Of a stretch of DNA of 64,000 bases, positions 6,130 to 63,690 are shown one piece after another. The number at the start of each line of letters is the position of its first letter. The first letter of the stretch is position 1. A program made the position numbers and the translations under genes. The notes beneath the pieces were generated by a model. It was not told the DNA's origin and did no database searches. It was given only the letters and a program-made list of their open reading frames with translations. This DNA is from Triatoma infestans (taxonomy: Eukaryota > Arthropoda > Insecta > Hemiptera > Reduviidae), in the NCBI GenBank assembly GCA_011037195.1, contig JAAEAF010002613.1, positions 1-64,000 of the forward strand, in the 5' to 3' direction.

Positions 6130-7084
6130 TGTGATGGATGCCAGAATTCTAGAAATTATATCTATTTTATTTTAGAGAAAAATGCACATTCGCTGGCAAA
6201 AAGGGTACACACAAGTAGAAAACTACAGTTACAGAAAGAGTTCAAAGGACCTGGTTAGCTTTGTCTTTTAGAGTTCACAGAACTTTGGTAGCTTTGTCTT
6301 TTCATCCCTTCTCTCAGGGGAAGATTTATACTAACAAGAGAAGGCATTCTTTCAGAACAGTTCGCATTCTGCTTTCAAACAAGAACAGTCTGTAACAGAC
6401 ATTATACCAGTAAACATCAGTACCAGAATAGAAGAGTTTATTCTAGCTAGTTTCAGTATATTAATAAGCATATTACTGTGATATTGAAAAGTACTTAAAT
6501 TTCCTTAGAGAATATATCTATTTTAAAAACAGTGTGATTTCTTATTTATTTCTAATATTTCTCTCTCTTAAACATATATACTCATAAGCCCTTTACTAAA
6601 CCGCTCACGGCACAAGCTACTACAACACAATATCACCAATTACTCTATTTTATTTGAGAGAAAAATGCACATTCGCTGGCAAAAAGAGTACACACAGGTA
6701 GAAGACTACAGTTACAGAAAGAGTTCACAGGACCTGGTTAGCCTTGTCTTTTAGAGTTCACAGAACTTTGGTAGCTTTTTCTTTTCATCCCTTCTCTCAG
6801 GGGAAGATTTGTACTAACAAGAGAAGGCATTCTTTCAGAACAGTCTGCATTCTGCTTTCAAACAAGAACAGTCTGAAACAGACACCGAACCAGAACACTT
6901 GTACCAGTAAACATCAGTGCCAGTTATAAGTTATAACATAAGAGTTTTGCACTTAATCTATATAAATAATTGATTTATAAACATAATTACTGTGTTATTC
7001 TTTGAACATACACACTAGCCCTTTACAAAACCGCTCATGCCATAAGCGGTTCACACCAAACAACAGCACACCTATTACATTTCA
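6130..7084 (+). mobile_element. LTR family L1 with internal tandem duplication
   Basis: Starts TGTGATGGATGCC and ends ATTACATTTCA, as does the 474-bp copy at 20813-21286. Flanks CTAT (6126-6129) and CCAT (7085-7088) fit a 4-bp duplication with one change. The unit is double length because the body (ATGCACATTCGCTGGC... through CCGCTCA) occurs twice, from about 6170 and from about 6655. The second unit lacks the first ~40 bp of the LTR, so this is an internal tandem duplication, not two insertions. It carries an AATAAG/AATAA-type polyadenylation region near 6460. Confidence 0.7.
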
Positions 7085-11800: not shown

Positions 11801-11985
11801 TGTTTCCGGGTTGTGACCACGTTTCGCCCGTATTGCAATGTGCCTCTTCACAGTCGTAACGCCTTAAAAACCAAGAAGGCAATAAACCCTCGGTCCCTTT
11901 TGTGTTCAAGGTTTACGACCCTGAAGAGGCACTTTGCAATACGGGGGAAAACGTCGGTTCCTGACGCGGTCACAGCCCGAAAACT
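11801..11985. repeat. Foldback repeat
   Basis: Left arm 11801-11859 (GTATTGCAATGTGCCTCTTC) and right arm 11912-11985 (GAAGAGGCACTTTGCAATAC) are inverted copies with one bulge. GC-richer than the surroundings. Family unknown. Confidence 0.7.
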
Positions 11986-12541: not shown

Positions 12542-13689
12542 ATGTATTATTAAATAGAATACCTAACAAAAAGTCGTATGAGTGATTCACACCAGATTTT
12601 TATTCATGTTTTTATTTACAACGAAGTTCTTAGTAATTCTTTGTTTATCAGTAATCTATTATCATTAGTTTTGTTCTATCTGTTACGGATATTATTACTT
12701 TTAGCATTTCTAAATTATATTCATTTTTACTTATTTATTTAATTTTAATAAAGTATTTTTAGAATTATCTAATATTGAGGTTATTCTCTATCTCACACCT
12801 CTTCACCTTGTAGTTGAGAGGTGGCAGAAAGAAGCTATTATCTTCAAATATCTAGCGATATCTAATTTTTATAACAATGAAATCTTCCGATAACGTTCTG
12901 TTCAGATAATGTTTTTTTAAATATATATATATATATATTTTATAATCTTATATAAATTAAAAATGTTAGAAAGTGCCAATTTAATACTGGCAGTTAAGGT
13001 CATTAGTTTGGTGTAGATGGTGGAGGAGATATCTCGTCGTGCCATTTTATTGGCTGGTATTTCCATAGAATTAAATATCTCACTATATTCGATAAGTATT
13101 TCCCTTGGGAAAAGGTTGACATTGTAATTTAACTCTGCTCCAGTTTAACAATTGGTTACTGTTTATTATTTTTATGTTTTTTTTTTTTTAATGATCTCCC
13201 CGTCAATAAATATCGCAACACTGAAATTTTTTTGAACTTTACAAGAACACCTAGTTTTAAATAAAACAAAAACAAGTTCAGAAGTTCATAATAAACCATT
13301 TTAATTTGTATTTTGATAATTCTAGGAAGAATTTTTAGAAAAGATATGAAACCATTTTTTATTAGCCTTGTAAAATTTGTTTTTCCTTTTATTGCATGTT
13401 TTTCTTATTAGCAACAAATATATGAAAGAAACTCTACGTTTCGGGAATTTTGTGTTTGCCATTTTCATGAGTATTCTTATTTTATATTGAACATATTGCA
13501 TAAAAAATCGAATTTAGGGCGACCAAATTTTATTTAATATTTGTGAATATACTTATGATTTAAGCTTGTCTCTTTTGTTATAATATGTAGAGGAATTTTT
13601 CCTTTTTCGTTTTTTTTTAGGGTTTATTTTTACTTTGTAGTAGACTTCGTTTAAATGTTGATATTAGTTTTTGTATAATATAAAAGAAT
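12542..13689. other. AT-rich stretch, no gene recognised
   Basis: Includes a partial R-end phrase (TGAGTGATTCACACCAG near 12580) and a TA tract at about 12919-12940. Nothing else is supported. Confidence 0.5.
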
Positions 13690-14240
13690 TTGTTGACCGC
13701 TGATGAATTATGTCATAAAGAAATTTGGTGAGGATTGGTCAAGAAAAAAAAAAAACATTCAATTATGCCAACGTTTTGACAGAGTTTCCTATCTTTATCA
13801 AGGCTTTTGTAAGGGTGTTGTGAGGAGATGTTGGTTGTTGATGATCAAGATAAACACCTTAAGATTTGGTTTACGATATATAATTGATGTATGTAAATAT
13901 ATAACTGACTACCAAGGACTTGCACTTAAGAGTTTAGAACAGAACTGATACTGACAGACTGACGTGGCTAAAAATGAGATGTACGGTGCGATATTAACTG
14001 ATGTGTATCTGAATTCACAGAATGTCCTTTTTTGACTCTGTCTCTCGTATATATATCCAACTGGCCTCTCCTCTCCTCTCTCTCGAGAGGGGCTCTTTCT
14101 CTCTGATGCGTGGTGGGGGTTCACTCGCTAGTGTGGATGAGTGGTGGGGGTTCACTACCCCTACAATATATAGAAAGTCGTGAAGATGTAGAGAAAGAAT
14201 TCTTAAACATATACATTTGTTACATCGCAGAAACATAAAA
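13690..14240. repeat. Foldback repeat G, copy 1, split by LTR A
   Basis: 13690-13807 matches 58146-58250 (TTGACCGCTGATGAATTATG, TATGCCAACGTTTTGACAGAG), and 14166-14235 matches the continuation at 58270 on and, inverted, 58380-58440 (CTTAAACATATACATTTGT). The LTR at 13808-14165 sits between. The 58-kb copy shows the pre-insertion state. Confidence 0.7.
13808..14165 (-). mobile_element. Solo LTR, family A, copy 2
   Basis: 358 bp, TGTAAGGGTG to CCCCTACA, homologous along its length to 508-840, including the CTCTCTCTCGAGAGGGG block and the doubled GGTGGGGGTTCACT phrase. No clean duplication is visible at the ends, but comparison with the unoccupied repeat at 58.25 kb places the junctions. Confidence 0.75.
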
Positions 14241-15867
14241 AAAAAAATTAAAAGTTACTAGTGTCTTGTCTTAGTTTTTGTAATATAAAATGTATATATT
14301 TTTATTGAATATTATATTTAAAATTTAAGAATTGTTACAGCCTTTTAACACGGATGCATTGTTTTATTTTATATTTGTTTTTTTTCCTTATTGTAAAGAC
14401 TGAAAAAAAATGAGTTGAAAAATTTTTAATGTTATCACGTGTAATTCACACATTTAACACAAGTAAAGTTTTTAACGTTTAAAATTGCATATTACAAAGA
14501 AATCATGTATTAAACGATCTAATTTGGAACTTCATAAGATCCAGTCGGTTTGTTAGAAGAAATTATAGGTTACAAAAAGCTAATAAAGTTGATTTAAATA
14601 ATGACAACCAAGAATGGACGGCATTTAAATAATTGTTTCCGGTTGGCAGGCTGGAAAAGTTCATGGCTTTTAAGTTTTTTTTTTTTACTCTTTTGTTTGT
14701 TGGTAGCAGTGTCTTTTTTTTTATCTTTTAAATGATCGATAAAATCGAAATATATATGTGTTGATCTTTAATCTTTATGATATATATAATACATATATCA
14801 GACAGGATATACCGTTGATGTTATCGATAGTCCAGGTAGCAAGATTGGTATAAATGATTATTGAAAGGCGTGCCAAGGAGATCTCCCCTGTTGGACAACT
14901 TCTTTAACGATTGGAGTGCCTGTTAATAATAACCAAAGCACATTATAATTATTACTCGTAAATATACCATGGAATTTCTGATTGTGGTTTGAGGTTAAAC
15001 TCAAAAATTCAAATGAATATAAAAAATTGGTTTAAAATAAACCAACTATAAAAAGTTATTGTATTATACAAATGTTTTACTGTGACATAGATATAAGTTG
15101 TATAAACTTGAATTGTTATTTCTTAATACTAGATATCTATTATAAAAGATTATTGCATAAAGAAATGCATAATGTGAGGGAGTCGGGGGTGAAAAAGGCC
15201 TTGCATTTCTTGTACTAACCATTGTGAAAAAGTCAGCTACGAATTTTTCTAAATGTTCGTTTTTTTTTTGTTTTTTTTTTTTTTGATGTGATTGTAATTA
15301 TTTAGCAAAAAAATTCCCATGTGAAATATTCACACGAAAGTTTTAGTTGCCTTTTAGCACTACAACTAAATATAAAAGATGCTATAACGGATCTTAATCT
15401 TGTCCGGAGCTACATGAATATGATTACCTTGTAGATTATTAAAATAGCCTCAATCACGCGCAGCAAAACATGATAAAGTAGTTGAGTGTTAAGCTTAACC
15501 AAAACATATCTGACTTTAGTAGAATTCCCAGAATCAGTTTTTTCAGGAAAAAATTAAAGTGTGATAAGTTTAGTAAATGTATGAACTAACAATTTTCAAA
15601 ATCTTTAATTCTTTAGAGAATTTTAATGTTAAGTGAATGATTTGAGGTTTCACCATCTGTTAGATACTTGAAATCTTTTATTTCTAGCCCTGAAGAAGAA
15701 TGAAATATAACACGAAAAGTTGGTAGTTAAATAGTTTGCAAAGAAAAGAAGGACAACTCTTGAAATTCTTATATATCAGGTTAAACAACTTGGCCACCTA
15801 TTAACGCTAATGATTGATCTAAGATTAGCTAAGATCTGCCGAGGAAATTATAACCAACGAAGGAATC
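14241..15867. other. AT-rich stretch, no gene recognised
   Basis: A/T-rich non-coding sequence. A weak CTGAAGAAG...ACGAAAAGTT phrase at 15689-15723 recalls the hammerhead-like motifs elsewhere, but without a stem II. Confidence 0.5.
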
Positions 15868-18943: not shown

Positions 18944-20755
18944 TTATTTATTTATTTGTTTTTTGTTTTTGTCTGTTTGACATTAACCAGTTATTTGGAT
19001 TTTGAGAGCTGGAAAAAACCAACATATTGACATTTTTAACTACCCTTGGCTTCTAATTGCCTGCAACTGCCAATATGTTGGTGGAAAAAACCAGCCCTAT
19101 CTTTTCAAATTGACATGTCTCTTATAGTCTTCCAGTAACTAGGCTTCTGCACTCTCTTCCCCTTCTTCATTCTTAATCCTTGCAGAGATAAGGATTCTTA
19201 TCCTTAATCTTTAGACATGTCATATCGGAAACAATTTTATGGTTAATGCCTTTGAATATTATGTTGTTTTGGTGTCTAGTATAAGTGAAATGAGCACAGA
19301 ACTACAATGTGCTGAAAGATAATTCCTAATCCGACTTATATTTTCATTTTATTCCCTGTGATGAACTTGTATATGCAAACAAGCGCTTCCTTTTCCATTA
19401 GTGCCAATATGCTCTTTGCGCTACAAGGAAATCTACATACTTGGACAGTGCGGTTACAAACTTTTCTGTTTTTTTACTATACATTTTACAACTAAAGAGT
19501 AAATGATTGATGTCGCCATCCTCTCCTACCGCAATCGCATTTGGGACTATTTACGATGCGTATTTTATAAAGGTGCGGCTTGGTGAGATTATGGTTAAAC
19601 CTCAATCGCATTATCGTGGTGTAGAATTGCCTTTCCCCCTCCAACTCTTCAAACCAAGGGATTCGAGGCTGTATGTCTGAATAATATTTGCCTCTATATT
19701 CTTTTCCGTATTGATCCTGCCATAATTCTAAATACTTACTTTTCAGAGCATTGTTAATATCTCTCAAACTAGCTATCGGAATGTCTTCACCCGACTTAAT
19801 AGCATCTTTTGCCAGGATAATGACATATTCATTACCTTGGATCCCGGCATGCCCTTTGTTCCACACTATATGTATCCTTCCTGCAGCATTCTCCAACCTA
19901 TTCGCTACTTCTACGAGTATCGGGTCTATTACATCACCTGGACATTTTATCTTCTGAAGTGTACTTCTTGAGTCACTGAAAACTACCACAGTGTTGTCCC
20001 TCTTCTGGCTTATCTTATCTGCCAGCCCTATTGCTTTCCAAATTGCTGCCAATTCCGCAGTGTACACCGAGGCGATATTTGAAAGACTGTACTTCTTGGA
20101 GCTGCCAGTCTGGGGGTCCCATATGGCACAATCCACTCCATGGATCGATCTGGATCCATCCGTAAACAGGAAATACAGATTGGCTAGGCTCTCCTCAAAC
20201 ACCGCAGTGATCCCCCAAATCATGCACTCACCCCCTTCGTTTTTAAGTTTGTCATATATGTTCAAATGAACATAATATGACTCTGACCAGACCACACTGT
20301 AGGTTAACCGTCGCCTGGAGATCCTATGCAAAGCCGTGAATATGGAATACATGTCAGTAACAACTCCAACCATCCTGACACTTATCGGCTGTTTCCTTTT
20401 ATACCAAAACCTGTGTGAGGAGACCAAGTCTGCCAGCCTAGAAACTCCCGTTTGAAGCAGCTGATTGCATGATATCAGCCTTCTACACCAGAATCTACCC
20501 ATTAGTAAATCTCTTCTTAGTAGTAGTGTCATCTCTTTAGCCTCCACCAATAGAATACTAGTGGGTGTGGATCTCATGGCGCCCAAGCACATACGTACCG
20601 CTTTATACTGAATTTTATCTAGCTTGGCCAAAGCTGATTGACAAGCATCTCCGTAAATACCGCACGCATAATCTAACTTGGACAAAATTAAGTTCCGGTA
20701 AAGGAGGAGTGCGATTTTCGATCCGCCCCATAAGTCATATGCGCTATATATCGTA
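18944..20755 (-). mobile_element. 5'-truncated I-like non-LTR retrotransposon insertion
   Basis: Flanked by a perfect 15-bp direct repeat GTCTTGGGCATTTAT (18929-18943 and 20756-20770), the expected mark of target-primed reverse transcription. On the minus strand it starts inside the RT thumb region, runs through RNase H and a zinc-knuckle, and ends with a 3' UTR and A-rich (AAAT)n tail at the left. The segment from 19262 is shared with 56302-56922. The extra 19-kb 3' sequence is absent in that copy, which ends in (TA)n. Confidence 0.75.
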
Positions 20756-20766
20756 GTCTTGGGCAT
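19492..20766 (-). CDS. I-like retrotransposon pol C-terminus (RT thumb, RNase H), degenerate
   Basis: An open frame of 424 codons, the longest in the window. Residues about 20-90 match the region after the RT palm (LILSKLDYACGIYGDACQ; GAMRSTPTSILLVEAKEMTL). RNase H follows: FTDGS near 200, TAELAAIWKA near 235, FSDSRS near 263 and GHAGIQGNE near 306. The last catalytic Asp (GNExxD) is Ile here, so RNase H is probably dead. The end shows C-D-C-G but then runs off frame: one base is missing near 19515, and the +1 frame continues GEDGDINHLLFSCKMY, as confirmed by the copy at 56.5 kb. The first Met-Pro-Lys codons lie in the target duplication, so the start is fortuitous. Not a host gene. Confidence 0.85.
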   Translation of the reverse strand: MPKTTIYSAYDLWGGSKIALLLYRNLILSKLDYACGIYGDACQSALAKLDKIQYKAVRMCLGAMRSTPTSILLVEAKEMTLLLRRDLLMGRFWCRRLISCNQLLQTGVSRLADLVSSHRFWYKRKQPISVRMVGVVTDMYSIFTALHRISRRRLTYSVVWSESYYVHLNIYDKLKNEGGECMIWGITAVFEESLANLYFLFTDGSRSIHGVDCAIWDPQTGSSKKYSLSNIASVYTAELAAIWKAIGLADKISQKRDNTVVVFSDSRSTLQKIKCPGDVIDPILVEVANRLENAAGRIHIVWNKGHAGIQGNEYVIILAKDAIKSGEDIPIASLRDINNALKSKYLELWQDQYGKEYRGKYYSDIQPRIPWFEELEGERQFYTTIMRLRFNHNLTKPHLYKIRIVNSPKCDCGRRGWRHQSFTL

Positions 20767-31300: not shown

Positions 31301-31366
31301 TTTTTTAGTATATAAACCGAATTTGCTCTGTGCAAGACTATGTTATTCACAATGTCTTAACAAAAC

Positions 31367-31412
31367 ATCCTGATGATGGGCAAACGCCCGAACACCCGAA
31401 ACCGGTCGAAGA
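31367..31412 (+). ncRNA. Hammerhead-like motif, F2 right arm
   Basis: CATC, CTGATGA (31371-31377), stem II GGGC/GCCC extended by an 8-nt insertion (GAACACCC), GAAA (31399-31402), CCGG, TC, then GAAG where GATG would pair. Core bases are kept but stem II and stem I are disturbed; doubtful activity. Confidence 0.5.
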
Positions 31413-41513: not shown

Positions 41514-42104
41514 AACATCAGAGACATTTTCCGTGGTAGCCTGCTTCATTTTGTGGTCATCGACCGGTTTCGGGCGTTCGCCCATCTTCAGGATGCGTTT
41601 TTCAGACAGTGTGACAACACAGACCTGCACAGAGAAACTTAGTTTCACTCTAACTGAGACGTATTTTTAAAATACTAACCTCTTAAACTAGGTAAAGGGA
41701 TGTGGCCTGATGGGTGGGAAAACACGTGTTTGGGTTGTTAAAGGGCAAATTTTTTTCTTTCAGTGGACACAACACGATTTTTTTTTTTTAAATCGTTCAA
41801 TTTTAAACGAATGAATGAATTTTAAATGTTAGTTTAATCGTTGTTTAATTTATTTAAATTTATTTTGTGTATTTCTTATATTATTCATATTTTGGTTAAT
41901 TAATTGTAAAATAAGTCTCCCTCCAACAACAGAGTTTAAACATTAGACCCCCACGTGTTGTGTCCACTGTAAGAAAAAAATTTGCCCTTTAACAACCAAA
42001 CACGTGTTTTCCCACCCATCAGGCCACATCCCTTTACCTAGTTTAAGAGTTTAGTATTTTAAAAATACGTCTCAGTTAGAGTGAAACTAAGTTGCTCTGT
42101 GCAA
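41514..42104. mobile_element. Foldback element F, copy F3
   Basis: Outer left part 41514-41627 contains the hammerhead-like motif. The long inverted arms are 41628-41776 and 41953-42104 (for example GTGGGAAAACACGTGTTTGG against CAAACACGTGTTTTCCCACC), with an AT-rich loop between. The right arm is cut off at 42104, before its own ribozyme motif, by a mariner fragment. Confidence 0.8.
41558..41596 (-). ncRNA. Hammerhead-like ribozyme motif, F3 left arm, intact core
   Basis: Minus strand: GCATC, CTGAAGA (41591-41585, fits CUGANGA), T, stem II GGGC/GCCC around GAAC, GAAA (41571-41568), CCGG, TC, then GATG pairing with CATC as stem I. Predicted cleavage is after the C at 41562. One extra base lies between the core A and stem II, as in all F copies, which departs from the textbook fold. 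Confidence 0.65.
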
Positions 42105-42424: not shown

Positions 42425-42585
42425 ATGAGGTTGGTTCCGCAGAGCTGGAAAGGCATCAGAGATATTTTCCGTGATAGCTTGCTTCTTCTTTTGGTCATCG
42501 ACCGGTTTCGGTCGTTCGCCCATCATCAGGATGCTTTTTGTCAAACACTGTGATGACATAGATTTGCACAAAAAATTAAAAGAGA
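42425..42585. mobile_element. Foldback element F, copy F4, left arm only
   Basis: GGTTCCGCAGAGCTGGAAAG to GACATAGATTTGCAC follows the F left-arm consensus. The right arm is absent, and the arm is followed by an R-end phrase (GTGTGAGTGTTAGACACC). Confidence 0.75.
42496..42534 (-). ncRNA. Hammerhead-like ribozyme motif, F4
   Basis: GCATC, CTGATGA, T, stem II GGGC/GACC (one mismatch) with GAAC loop, GAAA, CCGG, TC, GATG. All core bases are present; one stem II pair is lost. Confidence 0.6.
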
Positions 42586-42599
42586 AACACGTGTGAGTG

Positions 42600-43466
42600 T
42601 TAGACACCAGATTTTTTTTTTTATGTAAAAATTCTCATTCTAATAAATAAAATGCTAAGAATTATTTTCTTTCATTTCGTAGAATAATTTCTTGGCCTTC
42701 AACATATTAAATTAACATAATATTATAATGAGTTCAATTGTTAAATCAGTGAATTATGGCCTTTTATAAAGTTAAACAATTTAACATTAATGAACGTTAA
42801 AAGTGATGGTAAGTCGTGTTCGGATTGCGTCATTAGGATTTACCTTTAGCCTTGGACCGACAATTGATATAGATACAGTGGGAACTCATATAGATCGCCA
42901 AAATGTACAGTTTCTTACAGTTGTAAATATACATTGAACAATTAAACTAGTTTTACATATTTACAACAATGGCTTTCTTTGAAAATTAGATTGCTTTCAT
43001 AGCAGATTTCCAGCTGTAATTTCCAAAATAAATTGACATGTGACTCCTATGTCCAATCATTGGAGCAATCGCAGTTTCAGATCACTGATCGCTTGTTGGA
43101 TTAATCTGTGCAAAGCATTGACAATAGAGTTAAATTTCTTTTGTTTTGATCGTGTTGGAGAGAGAGTTCAAACACACATTTTTCGTTCTGTACGATGTAT
43201 TCTCAAAAATTTTGTCGATAAATCCTTATTGATGTAATGTAATCAATTACTATTCAAATTTGCCACACAAATCTAACTAGTTCCTTTAGCAGCTGCATCG
43301 AGGCGCCATCTAAACTGTGCTTCAACTTCAACAGCGAATCTCCCTCATAGTAGCTGTTTATGTTGTAGGAGAAACCGAATAAAAGACGAACATCAGAAAG
43401 TTTAATAAGCGGTCGCCAAATAAACTTCGGCGAGTTCACGAATCTTAACATCAACTTTAAAAGTTT
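42600..43466. other. No gene recognised
   Basis: AT-rich and mixed sequence; no supported feature. Confidence 0.45.
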
Positions 43467-43536
43467 GTTGTGGTTGGTTCCGCAGACCTGGAAAACATCA
43501 GAGATATTTTCCATGAGAGCCTGCTTCTTTTTATGG

Positions 43537-43566
43537 TCTTCGTCCGGTTTCGGACAGAATTCATTT
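43537..43566 (-). ncRNA. Deleted hammerhead-like motif, F5 left arm
   Basis: The GAAACCGG and flanking bases remain, but stem II and CUGANGA are deleted. Inactive. Confidence 0.4.
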
Positions 43567-43989
43567 TGTCAAACAGTGTGATAACATAGATTTGCCCAGA
43601 GCAAATTTAGTTGATACACTGACTGGTTTTTAAATGTTTTTGTTTGGGCTTAACTAGGTTACGAGGGTGATGATGGTAACTGAGTGGGAAAAAACACATG
43701 TTTCGGACTTTAAATGGGGCATATTGTACCCTTTAAAAATGGAAACATCCAACATTCCATCTATCCAACCTTCAAAAAATGTAGTTTAAGTTATACACCC
43801 CCACGTGTTGGATGTTTCCATTTTTAAAGGGTACAATATGCCCCCTTTAAAGACTAAAGCATGTGTTTTCTCCCACTCAGGTACCATCAGCTTCGTAACA
43901 TAGGCCCTAACAAAAACATTTAAGGACCAATCAGTGTACAATTAAATTTGCTCTATACAAATCTATGTTATCACGCTGTTTGACAAAAA

Positions 43990-44028
43990 GCATCCTGACG
44001 ATGGGCGAACGCCCGAAACCGGTCGATG
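43990..44028 (+). ncRNA. Hammerhead-like ribozyme motif, F5 right arm, intact core
   Basis: GCATC (43990-43994), CTGACGA (43995-44001), T, stem II GGGC-GAAC-GCCC (44003-44014), GAAA (44015-44018), CCGG (44019-44022), TC (44023-44024), GATG (44025-44028). Stem I is CATC/GATG; stem III is minimal (A-U and C-G). Predicted cleavage is between 44024 and 44025. The single unpaired T after the core differs from the canonical form. Confidence 0.7.
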
Positions 44029-44193
44029 ATCACAAAAAGAAGCAGGCTATCACGGAAAATATCTCTGAAACTTTGAAAGTTTCACCAAGTTAGTCACATC
44101 ATTCTTCAGGTGATAGTCAGTCAACGCTACTCTTTGCCCAGTCACTCCACTCTCTCTAAACAAGCCTGATACAATAACAGCAATCGTAGCTTT

Positions 44194-45760: not shown

Positions 45761-45800
45761 CTTTTGCTGAAGATAGTCTGATTAGACCGAAACGTCCAGA
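45761..45800 (+). ncRNA. Hammerhead-like motif, third family
   Basis: CTGAAGA (45767-45773), TA, stem GTCT-GATT-AGAC (45776-45787), C, GAAA (45789-45792), CG, TC (45795-45796), then CAG pairing with the TTG before the core. The core bases fit, but stem III is reduced to an A-U pair over two bases and stem II is offset by extra bases. A stand-alone motif in a repeat that I cannot delimit. Confidence 0.4.
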
Positions 45801-54391: not shown

Positions 54392-54625
54392 ACATTCATC
54401 AAAGTAAAGGTATCAAGTTTATGTAGAGAGCCTATTTCAACTCAGTGTTTCTGTTACTCACTACACCTTTTGATTTGTTATTGTGTGACATACAATCAAC
54501 AAAACAATAAGTGTAATGTGAGTAACAGAAACATTGATTCGAAATAGGCTCTGTACACGAACTTGAAACCTTTACTCTGACGATGGATGAAAATCCGAAA
54601 CCAGTCAGGGAGTAATAGAAATATA
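54392..54625. repeat. Foldback repeat H with hammerhead-like motif
   Basis: Arms 54395-54465 (AGTGTTTCTGTTACTCACTACA) and 54510-54582 (GTAATGTGAGTAACAGAAAC) are inverted copies. The right arm ends in a complete hammerhead-like motif. The left arm's motif is cut by the adjacent LTR (only CATCAAAGTAAAGG remains). Confidence 0.75.
54571..54615 (+). ncRNA. Hammerhead-like ribozyme motif, second family
   Basis: TTTACT, CTGACGA (54577-54583), T, stem II GGAT-GAAA-ATCC (54585-54596), GAAA (54597-54600), CCAG, TC (54605-54606), AGGGAGTAA. Stem I can pair TTACT with AGTAA, with AGGG bulged, or T-C with A-G directly. Predicted cleavage after 54606. All core bases fit; the same extra T follows the core. 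Confidence 0.6.
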
Positions 54626-55716
54626 AATGTTACGACTTATAAAATATCATATGTTATACAGTATTGCGGACCCTTCTAAATATTACATAAATAGTTAATT
54701 TTAATTTAATATTTAAACTTCTTCTAAGCAAAATTACTCTCTGGTGGAAGAATCCACTGTGAAATATAAACAATGACACCGTCATCACACATTAAATAAC
54801 CTTATCTTAAATATTTACCTATTGCAAGGTATCATATTATTTCATCATGAGATGCTCAGTTTACCCCATATTATTGATATAATTTATAAATAGCAATTTC
54901 TAGTTTTTTGAAAGCTGTATAAAATATATTTTGCTGCTTCTAACATAGAGGTGGAAAAAAAAAATTGAAGATTAGTCTTTCGAAAGCAATAAACTCTGTG
55001 GAGAAATGTCTATTTCAAAAATTGATAATCTTTGCCTTTGTCGAAAGGCAAAAGAGCTACGTTTTCTAGCTATTTTGTTAGTATTAGTTGGAGAAATAAT
55101 AGAATTAGTGAACGTTTTCGAATCTAAAAGTTTTAGGTAATTTCATCAGCCACTTGAATAGTCATTGTATTTCTTCTACAATTACACAATATACAGTGCA
55201 TATTGTTCTTGTTTAGTATACGCAATTCTTCTTCTTTTGTCCTGACCAATTAACGTTGACTAGGCAGTTGGTAATAATGAGTTCTTTTTTTTTTTTAGTC
55301 ACACGCAAATAACTACTCAAAAAGATCCGCCTCAAATTCTTGAGAGAATACATACAATGTTTTCCATATATTTGGGGAGCACTCTTAGATAAATGAGGAA
55401 TTGGCTAATCGGCCGTGGGATCTATTACAGCGTGTTTAGAGTGCTATTACTTGTTTAGAATGCCCACATCATTTCAACATTTTAATTTATTCATAAGAGA
55501 TGGGAGAGCAATTGCTGCCCATATTATTTTTTAGGCATTGATTTTTCCACTTCCAGATGTTGGAATTACCTGGACACAGCCTTGAATTGGCCATCACTTG
55601 ACAGTTTCTGAATCCATACTTCTATGTTTTGCAGTAGATCTAAGAAAACATTTGTTAATAAAATTTCTTTCCTGTCTCCAAACTAGGTGGTGGTTACTTC
55701 AATAACTTCTGAGATT
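54626..55716. other. No gene recognised
   Basis: AT-rich to 55240, then mixed sequence that may be old coding debris on minus (55300-55700), but no motif is clear. Confidence 0.4.
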
Positions 55717-62720: not shown

Positions 62721-62828
62721 TTTTTTTTTTTTTATTTTAGTTTTTTACTATTTTTCTTGATAACGCTACAACGATTTTCGTTGGTACTTCGTCTATTATG
62801 TACACTCATTAATACCTATCACTTTTAT

Positions 62829-63020
62829 CAGTGATATTTTCTGTGATGGCCTGCTCTTTTTTTTGTGGTCATCTACCGGTTTTGGGGCGTACGCCCATCA
62901 TCATGCTTTTTGTCAAACATTGTGATAACATAGATTTGCACAGCGCAAAACCACAAAAAGAAGCAAGCTATCATGGAAAATATCTCTGATGCTTTCCAGT
63001 TCTGCGGAACTACACAACAA
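62829..63020. mobile_element. Foldback element F, copy F6, deleted
   Basis: Left arm CAGTGATATTTTCTGTGATGG to TTTGCACAGCGC and shortened right arm AAAACCACAAAAAGAAGC to CAGTTCTGCGGAACT. A 14-bp duplication with one mismatch, CCTATCACTTTTAT (62815-62828) and CCTATCACTTTCAT (63021-63034). Confidence 0.8.
62870..62906 (-). ncRNA. Degenerate hammerhead-like motif, F6
   Basis: CAT, GATGA (first two core bases lost), GGGCGTACGCCC stem II, CAAA for GAAA, CCGG, then TAGATG. Inactive. Confidence 0.4.
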
Positions 63021-63544: not shown

Positions 63545-63690
63545 AATCAGAAACATTTTCCGTGGTAGCCTGCTTCATTTTGTGGTCATCGACCGGTTTC
63601 GGGCGTTCGGTCCTTCTTCAGGATGCGTTTTTCAGACAGTGTGACAACACAAACTTGCACAAAGCAAAGTTAGTTTACACACTAAAATTA
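63545..63690. mobile_element. Foldback element F, copy F7, left arm only
   Basis: TCAGAAACATTTTCCGTGGT to GCAAAGTTAGTTTACACAC, closest to F3 (shared CTTCTTCAGGATGCGTTTTT, GTGACAACACA). Confidence 0.7.
63587..63626 (-). ncRNA. Hammerhead-like motif, F7, stem II altered
   Basis: GCATC, CTGAAGA, then AGGACCGAACGCCC with a broken stem II, GAAA, CCGG, TC, GATG. Core bases are present but stem II no longer pairs fully. Confidence 0.5.

Follow-up and report, generated by a model that had tools for sequence, protein, structure and literature searches.

Short head-to-head insertions with the structural features of Penelope-like elements carry a hammerhead-like motif in Triatoma infestans

The closest described systems are the Penelope-like elements (PLEs). 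In the account of Arkhipova 2013 (PMC3846280), Penelope consists of an ORF flanked by pLTRs; another pLTR lies alongside in inverted orientation, and the target site is duplicated. The first codons of the ORF lie inside the pLTR, the commonest pattern is head-to-head, and an optional 31-bp tail is found on one inverted pLTR. Work from 2024 on PAc, a Poseidon PLE of an Anolis lizard, describes a protein able to cut both strands and extend them, which in vitro begins copying inside the RNA near the start of the ORF (PMC11167929). PAc hammerhead mutants still insert, and PAc cleavage required protein (PMC11167929). According to a review, PLE hammerheads are without helix III and might work as dimers, and no role is known for them (PMC7761336); both the mode of PLE insertion and the role of the hammerhead are described as unresolved in these last two sources. 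A literature search covering titles and the beginnings of abstracts found no description of a family of short, hammerhead-bearing PLE pairs in head-to-head arrangement. PLE hammerheads without stem III are already known; the family described here, F, adds a member whose anatomy is useful for testing PLE insertion.

F was examined in a 64-kb window of the Triatoma infestans genome (the whole stretch of DNA analysed) and at loci drawn from the 941-Mb assembly of 13,959 contigs, which includes the window. Like Pen2a of Adineta vaga (PMC3846280), F has head-to-head pLTRs, an optional 31-bp tail on one of them, an ORF start in the pLTR and short target duplications (9-16 bp in F vs 8-10 bp in Pen2a). 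Unlike Pen2a, F is mostly made up of pLTR pairs without an ORF and is far more numerous. PAc shares with F a hammerhead without a normal stem III, an ORF starting from stem II and, on the mechanism proposed below for F, internal initiation near the ORF start; the distance from the start codon to the cut site is 26 bp in PAc and a predicted 24 in F (PMC11167929). In contrast to F, PAc is intact and tandem. Cleavage by the PAc hammerhead required protein (PMC11167929). The minimal type I hammerheads of PLEs have in common with F the core, a single strong stem II, a stem III that is minimal or absent, and a palindromic junction (PMC7761336); this palindrome is the six-nucleotide ACCGGU in F and ACGU in the local PLE motifs. 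Local GIY-YIG PLEs of the L032 type have, like F, a one-base insertion after A9, a 4-bp stem I, outward motifs and one tail, and differ from F in their stem sequences and in an ORF that is partly open (590 codons in L054). Animal retrozymes also carry a type I hammerhead in small non-coding repeats, whereas they are tandem direct repeats with a circular RNA intermediate (PMC7229834).

The original prediction described F as a foldback element, an identity that was replaced once the ends, tails and target duplications were compared: F copies are head-to-head, variably truncated terminal repeats of the PLE type. In F copies printed with their flanks, the outer ends are common and the inner parts differ, one outer end reading GTTGTGGTTGGTTCCGCAG... 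and the other ...AAAATATCTCTGA. All 25 examined pairs are inverted, and the 31-nt tail is present on exactly one arm in 23 of them, on neither arm in two and on both arms in none. Target duplications of 9-16 bp with a score of at least 8 were found in 15 of 22 F pairs compared with 8 of 462 mismatched flank pairs, and 7 of the 22 have no duplication above a score of 7 or none at all. The L010, L050 and 5.9-kb pairs lay outside this test, and no duplication is seen by eye at 5.9 kb. The 5' edge lies 135-139 nt before the TCTCTGA end in 15 of 64 arms and beyond 140 nt in 11 of 64, and the longer copies display progressive 5' truncation, being cut at different upstream points. The segmental duplicates L012, L018 and L023 were left out of the arm, tail, edge and duplication counts. 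Local GIY-YIG elements carry their own tail on 13 of 28 ends, and the four GIY-YIG loci with both ends in view each have one tail and a target duplication (scores of 9-14, compared with at most 6 in 12 mismatched pairs). As read from its sequence, F has the structure of a Penelope-like element. The coordinates of the features are collected in Table 1.

Table 1. Features of the F insertion at 43.5 kb and of related insertions in the 64-kb window.
Feature	Position	Strand	Basis
Complete F insertion, with its two arms head-to-head and the tails pointing outward	43467..44068	+	Inverted repeats I1-I4; ends and flanks
Left target-site duplication AACTTTAAAAGTTT	43453..43466	.	Matches 44069-44082 at 13/14
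31-nt tail, left arm only	43467..43497	-	End comparison; such a tail is described on one inverted pLTR of a pair (PMC3846280)
Left arm, which has lost the hammerhead core	43498..43754	-	Inverted repeats and alignment
Right arm, including the unpaired 5' stretch formerly called the 'loop'; ends ...AAAATATCTCTGA	43755..44068	+	Repeats, ends, longer copies
TCAGTGT, which we take to be Inr-like (Inr consensus); most arms begin here or just downstream	43931..43937	+	5' edges of 64 arms
Type I hammerhead-like motif, predicted cut between 44024/44025	43991..44028	+	Descriptor, arm conservation, covariation, covariance model
Reading-frame start MGERPKPVDDHKKKQAITENIS	44001..44068	+	Translation; the PAc ORF likewise starts at stem II (PMC11167929)
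Extra unpaired base after A9; T of ATG 44001-44003	44002..44002	+	Single insertion also in PLE-linked motifs
ACCGGT, self-complementary, replaces stem III	44018..44023	+	Sequence; predicted to pair between strands in a double hammerhead
Right target-site duplication AACTTTGAAAGTTT	44069..44082	.	Flank comparison
Intact core, stem II duplicated, 31.4-kb F arm	31366..31411	+	Alignment and PLE-trained model, E 6.9
Intact hammerhead-like motif, 41.5-kb F arm	41558..41595	-	Descriptor and PLE-trained model
Intact core, one stem II mismatch, 42.4-kb F arm	42496..42533	-	Alignment and PLE-trained model
Insertion of the sister family, which has an inverted repeat of its own and a core at 54577	54396..54680	+	Repeats, alignment, translation
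Short F insertion with a 5' truncation of the right arm; duplication AAAGTGATAGGT in the flanks, matched 12/12	62828..63018	.	Ends and flanks
Intact core, stem II insertion, 63.5-kb F arm	63587..63625	-	Alignment and PLE-trained model

The right arm was originally said to contain every core base of a type I hammerhead together with stems I and II, and a direct read of 43991-44028 agrees. The 5' half consists of CATC (43991-43994), CTGACGA (43995-44001), the extra T (44002) and GGGC-GAAC-GCCC (44003-44014), and the 3' half of GAAA (44015-44018), CCGG-T-C (44019-44024) and GATG (44025-44028). CUGANGA, GAAA and UH are present at their hammerhead positions along with stems I and II, and A9 is separated from stem II by one base. 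A strict descriptor of this form matches the 64-kb window at the 43991 (+) core and at 41591 (-), and it found no match in 60 dinucleotide shuffles of the window, with or without the stem I requirement. Pure chance is ruled out as the origin of the core by these shuffles (0/60) and by the block shuffles of fetched DNA given below (0/10). At the level of sequence, the hammerhead-like core is a real feature that is multicopy in the T. infestans genome; the motif is repeated and structurally supported, and its cleavage activity is putative.

F arms occur at all seven sites where the architecture had been placed (5.9, 30.5, 41.5, 42.4, 43.5, 62.8 and 63.5 kb), but the core is broken or lost at several of them. 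Further F arms lie at 31.4, 62.95 and 7.1 kb, the 62.95+ and 7.1-kb arms ending before the core region. Ten window arms reach this region in alignments read by eye, and the core is intact in five (31.4+, 41.5-, 42.4-, 43.99+ and 63.5-, which keep CTGANGA, GAAA and TC), broken in four (5.9-, 5.9+, 30.5- and 62.8-) and lost in one, namely the left arm of the very insertion for which the motif was described (43.5-). The statement that N7 varies is correct, as the base is C, T or A. The unpaired T attributed to every copy is found in 53 of 55 arms genome-wide, with A taking its place in the 63.5- arm. Compensated bases had also been reported within F, and none was seen: among the 47 gaplessly matched arms described below, a double-changed pair is absent save for one A-T cell.

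A genome search with a 91-base F query gave 1288 first-look candidates, the best 40 of which were scored, and all matched. F loci were selected for their resemblance to the query (40 of 1288 and 40 of 1707 candidates, and 40 of 2956 for the sister family), and these genome counts are not copy numbers. A gapless match was obtained for 47 of 64 arms and failed for 17. All fixed core bases are kept in 29 of the 47 matched arms, and 22 of the 47 keep the core bases together with all four pairs of stem II and at least three of the four pairs of stem I. In an alignment of 57 arms, none of the other 34 core positions varies as much as N7 (41 T, 9 C and 6 A of 56), and G8 is invariant (56/56). This combination suggests hammerhead constraint; it is suggestive rather than proof because the same 57 arms also vary just outside the core, at 43990 and 44030 as much as at N7, and over much of the 5' half.

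As a control, the genome was searched for the PLE GIY-YIG domain, which gave 38 matches among 150 scored, and 30 loci were fetched. The F-type architecture, including the extra base, is present in 25 of these 30 loci and, together with the pLTR, tail and target-duplication comparisons, bears out the Penelope connection put forward in the original prediction. The motif at the PLE loci is built of CTGANGA, one extra base, a stem-loop and GAAACGT. Across 354 kb of fetched DNA, which partly overlaps and retains duplicates, the strict form occurs 0 times with zero extra bases, 51 times with one, 0 times with two and once with three, and it is absent from 10 block shuffles of this DNA. The 51 one-extra-base matches belong to F (25), the L032 type (23), the L041 type (2) and the L037 type (1). 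The extra base is common to PLE motifs, and the unpaired T that had been raised as a caveat is therefore a regular trait; in T. infestans the PLE form of the hammerhead regularly includes one extra base after A9.

The stems were also compared across families in an alignment by type, in which 92.5% of the cells of stems I and II are paired. Double changes in these stems number 20, compared with a shuffle mean of 6.5, a value reached by 0 of 500 shuffles, and slid controls gave at most 5. Three of the five covariation measures were reached by 0 of 500 shuffles and the others by 16 and 25 of 500. This alignment keeps one misaligned row (45767), contains F in two near-identical rows and includes three rows whose stem II, though not stem I, was required by the scan that found them. 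In these aligned sequences, stems I and II covary between families. Two further sequences were noted among the fetched loci. In the F copy at L083 1901 (+), GAAACCGGTC is replaced by GAAACGTC, the junction of the local PLE motifs. L041 594(-) and 816(+), which carry the motif CTGAAGAAGACAAACAAAGTTTGTCGAAACGTCG, make up a third pair in head-to-head orientation.

The check by covariance models, which had been suggested for the motif, gave a mixed answer. The Rfam hammerhead models produced no match in the window at the gathering score nor up to E 10. They also missed the motifs in four GIY-YIG PLE loci; the silence of Rfam on F says little because these local PLE motifs are missed as well. Rfam hammerhead models can miss the PLE form, and such ribozymes are probably under-annotated. 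A model trained on three PLE motifs, with F excluded and with rough E-values, was modestly positive. It gave 31 window matches up to E 10, with the 43991 core in seventh place (18.8 bits, rough E 0.027), and F cores account for four of the nine window matches with E up to 0.15, the 41558(-) and 63587(-) cores ranking above 43991 and 42496(-) ranking ninth (E 0.15). The non-F matches that rank above 43991 are 13431(-), 13766(-), 45763(+) and 15686(+); two of these are missing fixed core bases and may reflect decay or chance. This model finds the F core in six of the eight F loci given to it, gives matches of 16.8-21.8 bits in non-F loci as well, and scores the sister core at 54573 at only 11.3 bits (E 2.4). 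The isolated PLE-type hammerhead-like motif at 45763-45800 (+), CTGAAGA-T-AGTCTGATTAGACC-GAAACGTCC, reaches 23.9 bits. Further matches at 11917-11959 (+), 13431-13472 (-), 13766-13805 (-) and 15686-15725 (+) are possibly decayed PLE remains. The predicted monomer fold is no more stable than shuffles (37/200 as good). A double hammerhead formed through ACCGGU has a calculated energy of -27.3 kcal/mol, and a plain duplex, at -31.2, is the most favourable dimer fold. A scan of viral contigs for the F core gave 0 matches.

The search for coding sequence found no intact F ORF. In L094, the longest F copy followed, broken frames upstream of the arm match a profile of 120 PLE proteins in colinear order within 450 nt (positions 639-692, E 0.003; 698-722, E ~1; 745-769, E 0.4). 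The best value of E 0.003 holds for a set of 646 fragments, and at E 0.01 among 8387 fragments the L094 pieces are not reported. The endonuclease-like piece of L094 matches a local PLE by BLASTP at E 4e-4 over 47 residues. Pfam returned no PLE family for two broken frames, tblastn gave no match outside the GIY-YIG loci, the N-terminal reading of F has no resemblance to the 120 PLE proteins (best E 5.5), and the 64-kb window holds no PLE coding match at E 0.01. The L091 locus has a PLE endonuclease fragment between its arms (E 1.3e-6), and the adjoining arm is not of the long type. The endonuclease-like pieces of L094 hint at a link between F and a PLE coding region. The PLE proteins of the genome have their named matches mostly in insects.

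A sister family, for which the genome gave 2956 first-look candidates, is represented in the window by the copy at 54577, whose frame has stops. Stem II differs by compensation between the two families (GGGC/GCCC in F vs GGAT/ATCC in the sister), with two stem II pairs changing on both sides, and the reading M-x-E-x-P-K-P-V is common to both.

It is considered likely that F is a Penelope-like retroelement family, represented mostly by short products, that inserts by internal priming on two strands and carries across its start codon a hammerhead whose cleavage would be assisted by a dimer or by protein. The F transcript would start near the presumed Inr-like TCAGTGT, with the hammerhead approximately 60 nt downstream and the ATG of the F ORF overlapping the hammerhead core. 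Reverse transcription would begin within the early ORF, at one of two sites approximately 31 nt apart, and copying would proceed back to the 5' end of the RNA. Both cut target strands would be extended by the PLE enzyme, the two cDNAs would meet at their 5' ends, and the product would be a head-to-head pair with outward tails inside a target duplication of 9-16 bp. The palindrome ACCGGU may let two strands share a stem III, such that the RNA would be cut as a dimer or with the help of protein, and the opposite arm of a head-to-head copy could base-pair with the motif and mask it. The many PLE insertions that are short, dated and two-ended would preserve, as a natural record, the starting points of reverse transcription on each strand.

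The step of this mechanism with the most serious competitor is the formation of the pairs, which could instead arise by self-priming on an antisense transcript, as proposed for rotifer Penelope from palindromes at inverted junctions (PMC3846280). Self-priming alone does not produce fixed outer ends that differ from each other and carry a single tail, and a PLE protein has been observed to cut and extend both strands (PMC11167929); this origin is regarded as somewhat unlikely. The identity of F itself could be questioned on the grounds that every copy is an inverted repeat and that an F ORF was not found, as in a foldback or MITE-like DNA transposon with an incidental hammerhead-like stretch. 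The ends of the two arms differ in 23 of 25 pairs, however, the outer ends are fixed while inner cuts fall at many positions, and the target duplications are of imperfect length (9-16 bp). A foldback DNA transposon was rejected on this end asymmetry and these duplications, with neither symmetrical fixed TIRs nor a duplication of fixed length found, and is highly improbable. Small size, a type I hammerhead and short copies without an ORF would also fit a non-LTR retrozyme spreading via small circular RNAs (PMC7229834), but retrozymes are tandem direct repeats, the 25 examined F pairs are inverted, and the tail and ATG of F match those of PLEs, making this origin highly improbable.

The hammerhead likeness could also be a by-product of coding constraint on the first codons of the ORF, given that an ATG and open frame span the motif and the tail, that the T/C variation at 44030 falls at a third codon position, and that F and its sister have the M-x-E-x-P-K-P-V reading in common. 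Against this, C3-G8 and the 5' strand of stem I precede the ATG, the two stem II differences that separate F from its sister change the encoded amino acids on each side of the stem with the pairs kept, and unrelated PLE motifs have the same core and no common frame. A coding-only explanation is disfavoured by the spectrum of PLE motifs and by the covariation, and is viewed as very unlikely. An extension of the preferred reading, in which F is a Penelope-like family primed internally on two strands, would make F a self-sustaining 'mini-Penelope'. Thousands of pLTR pairs would derive from a short capped RNA, the two strands would be primed 31 nt apart with each insertion recording both, and the hammerhead spanning the ATG would decide between translation, cutting and templating; this extension is speculative and is held to be unlikely.

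Two other features of the window were noted. A 255-nt direct repeat, 93% identical (6161-6415 and 6644-6898), adjoins the 5.9-kb F pair, and a 424-codon ORF at 19492-20766 (-) has RNase H and reverse-transcriptase relatives in insects, with named matches in flea and Rhodnius.
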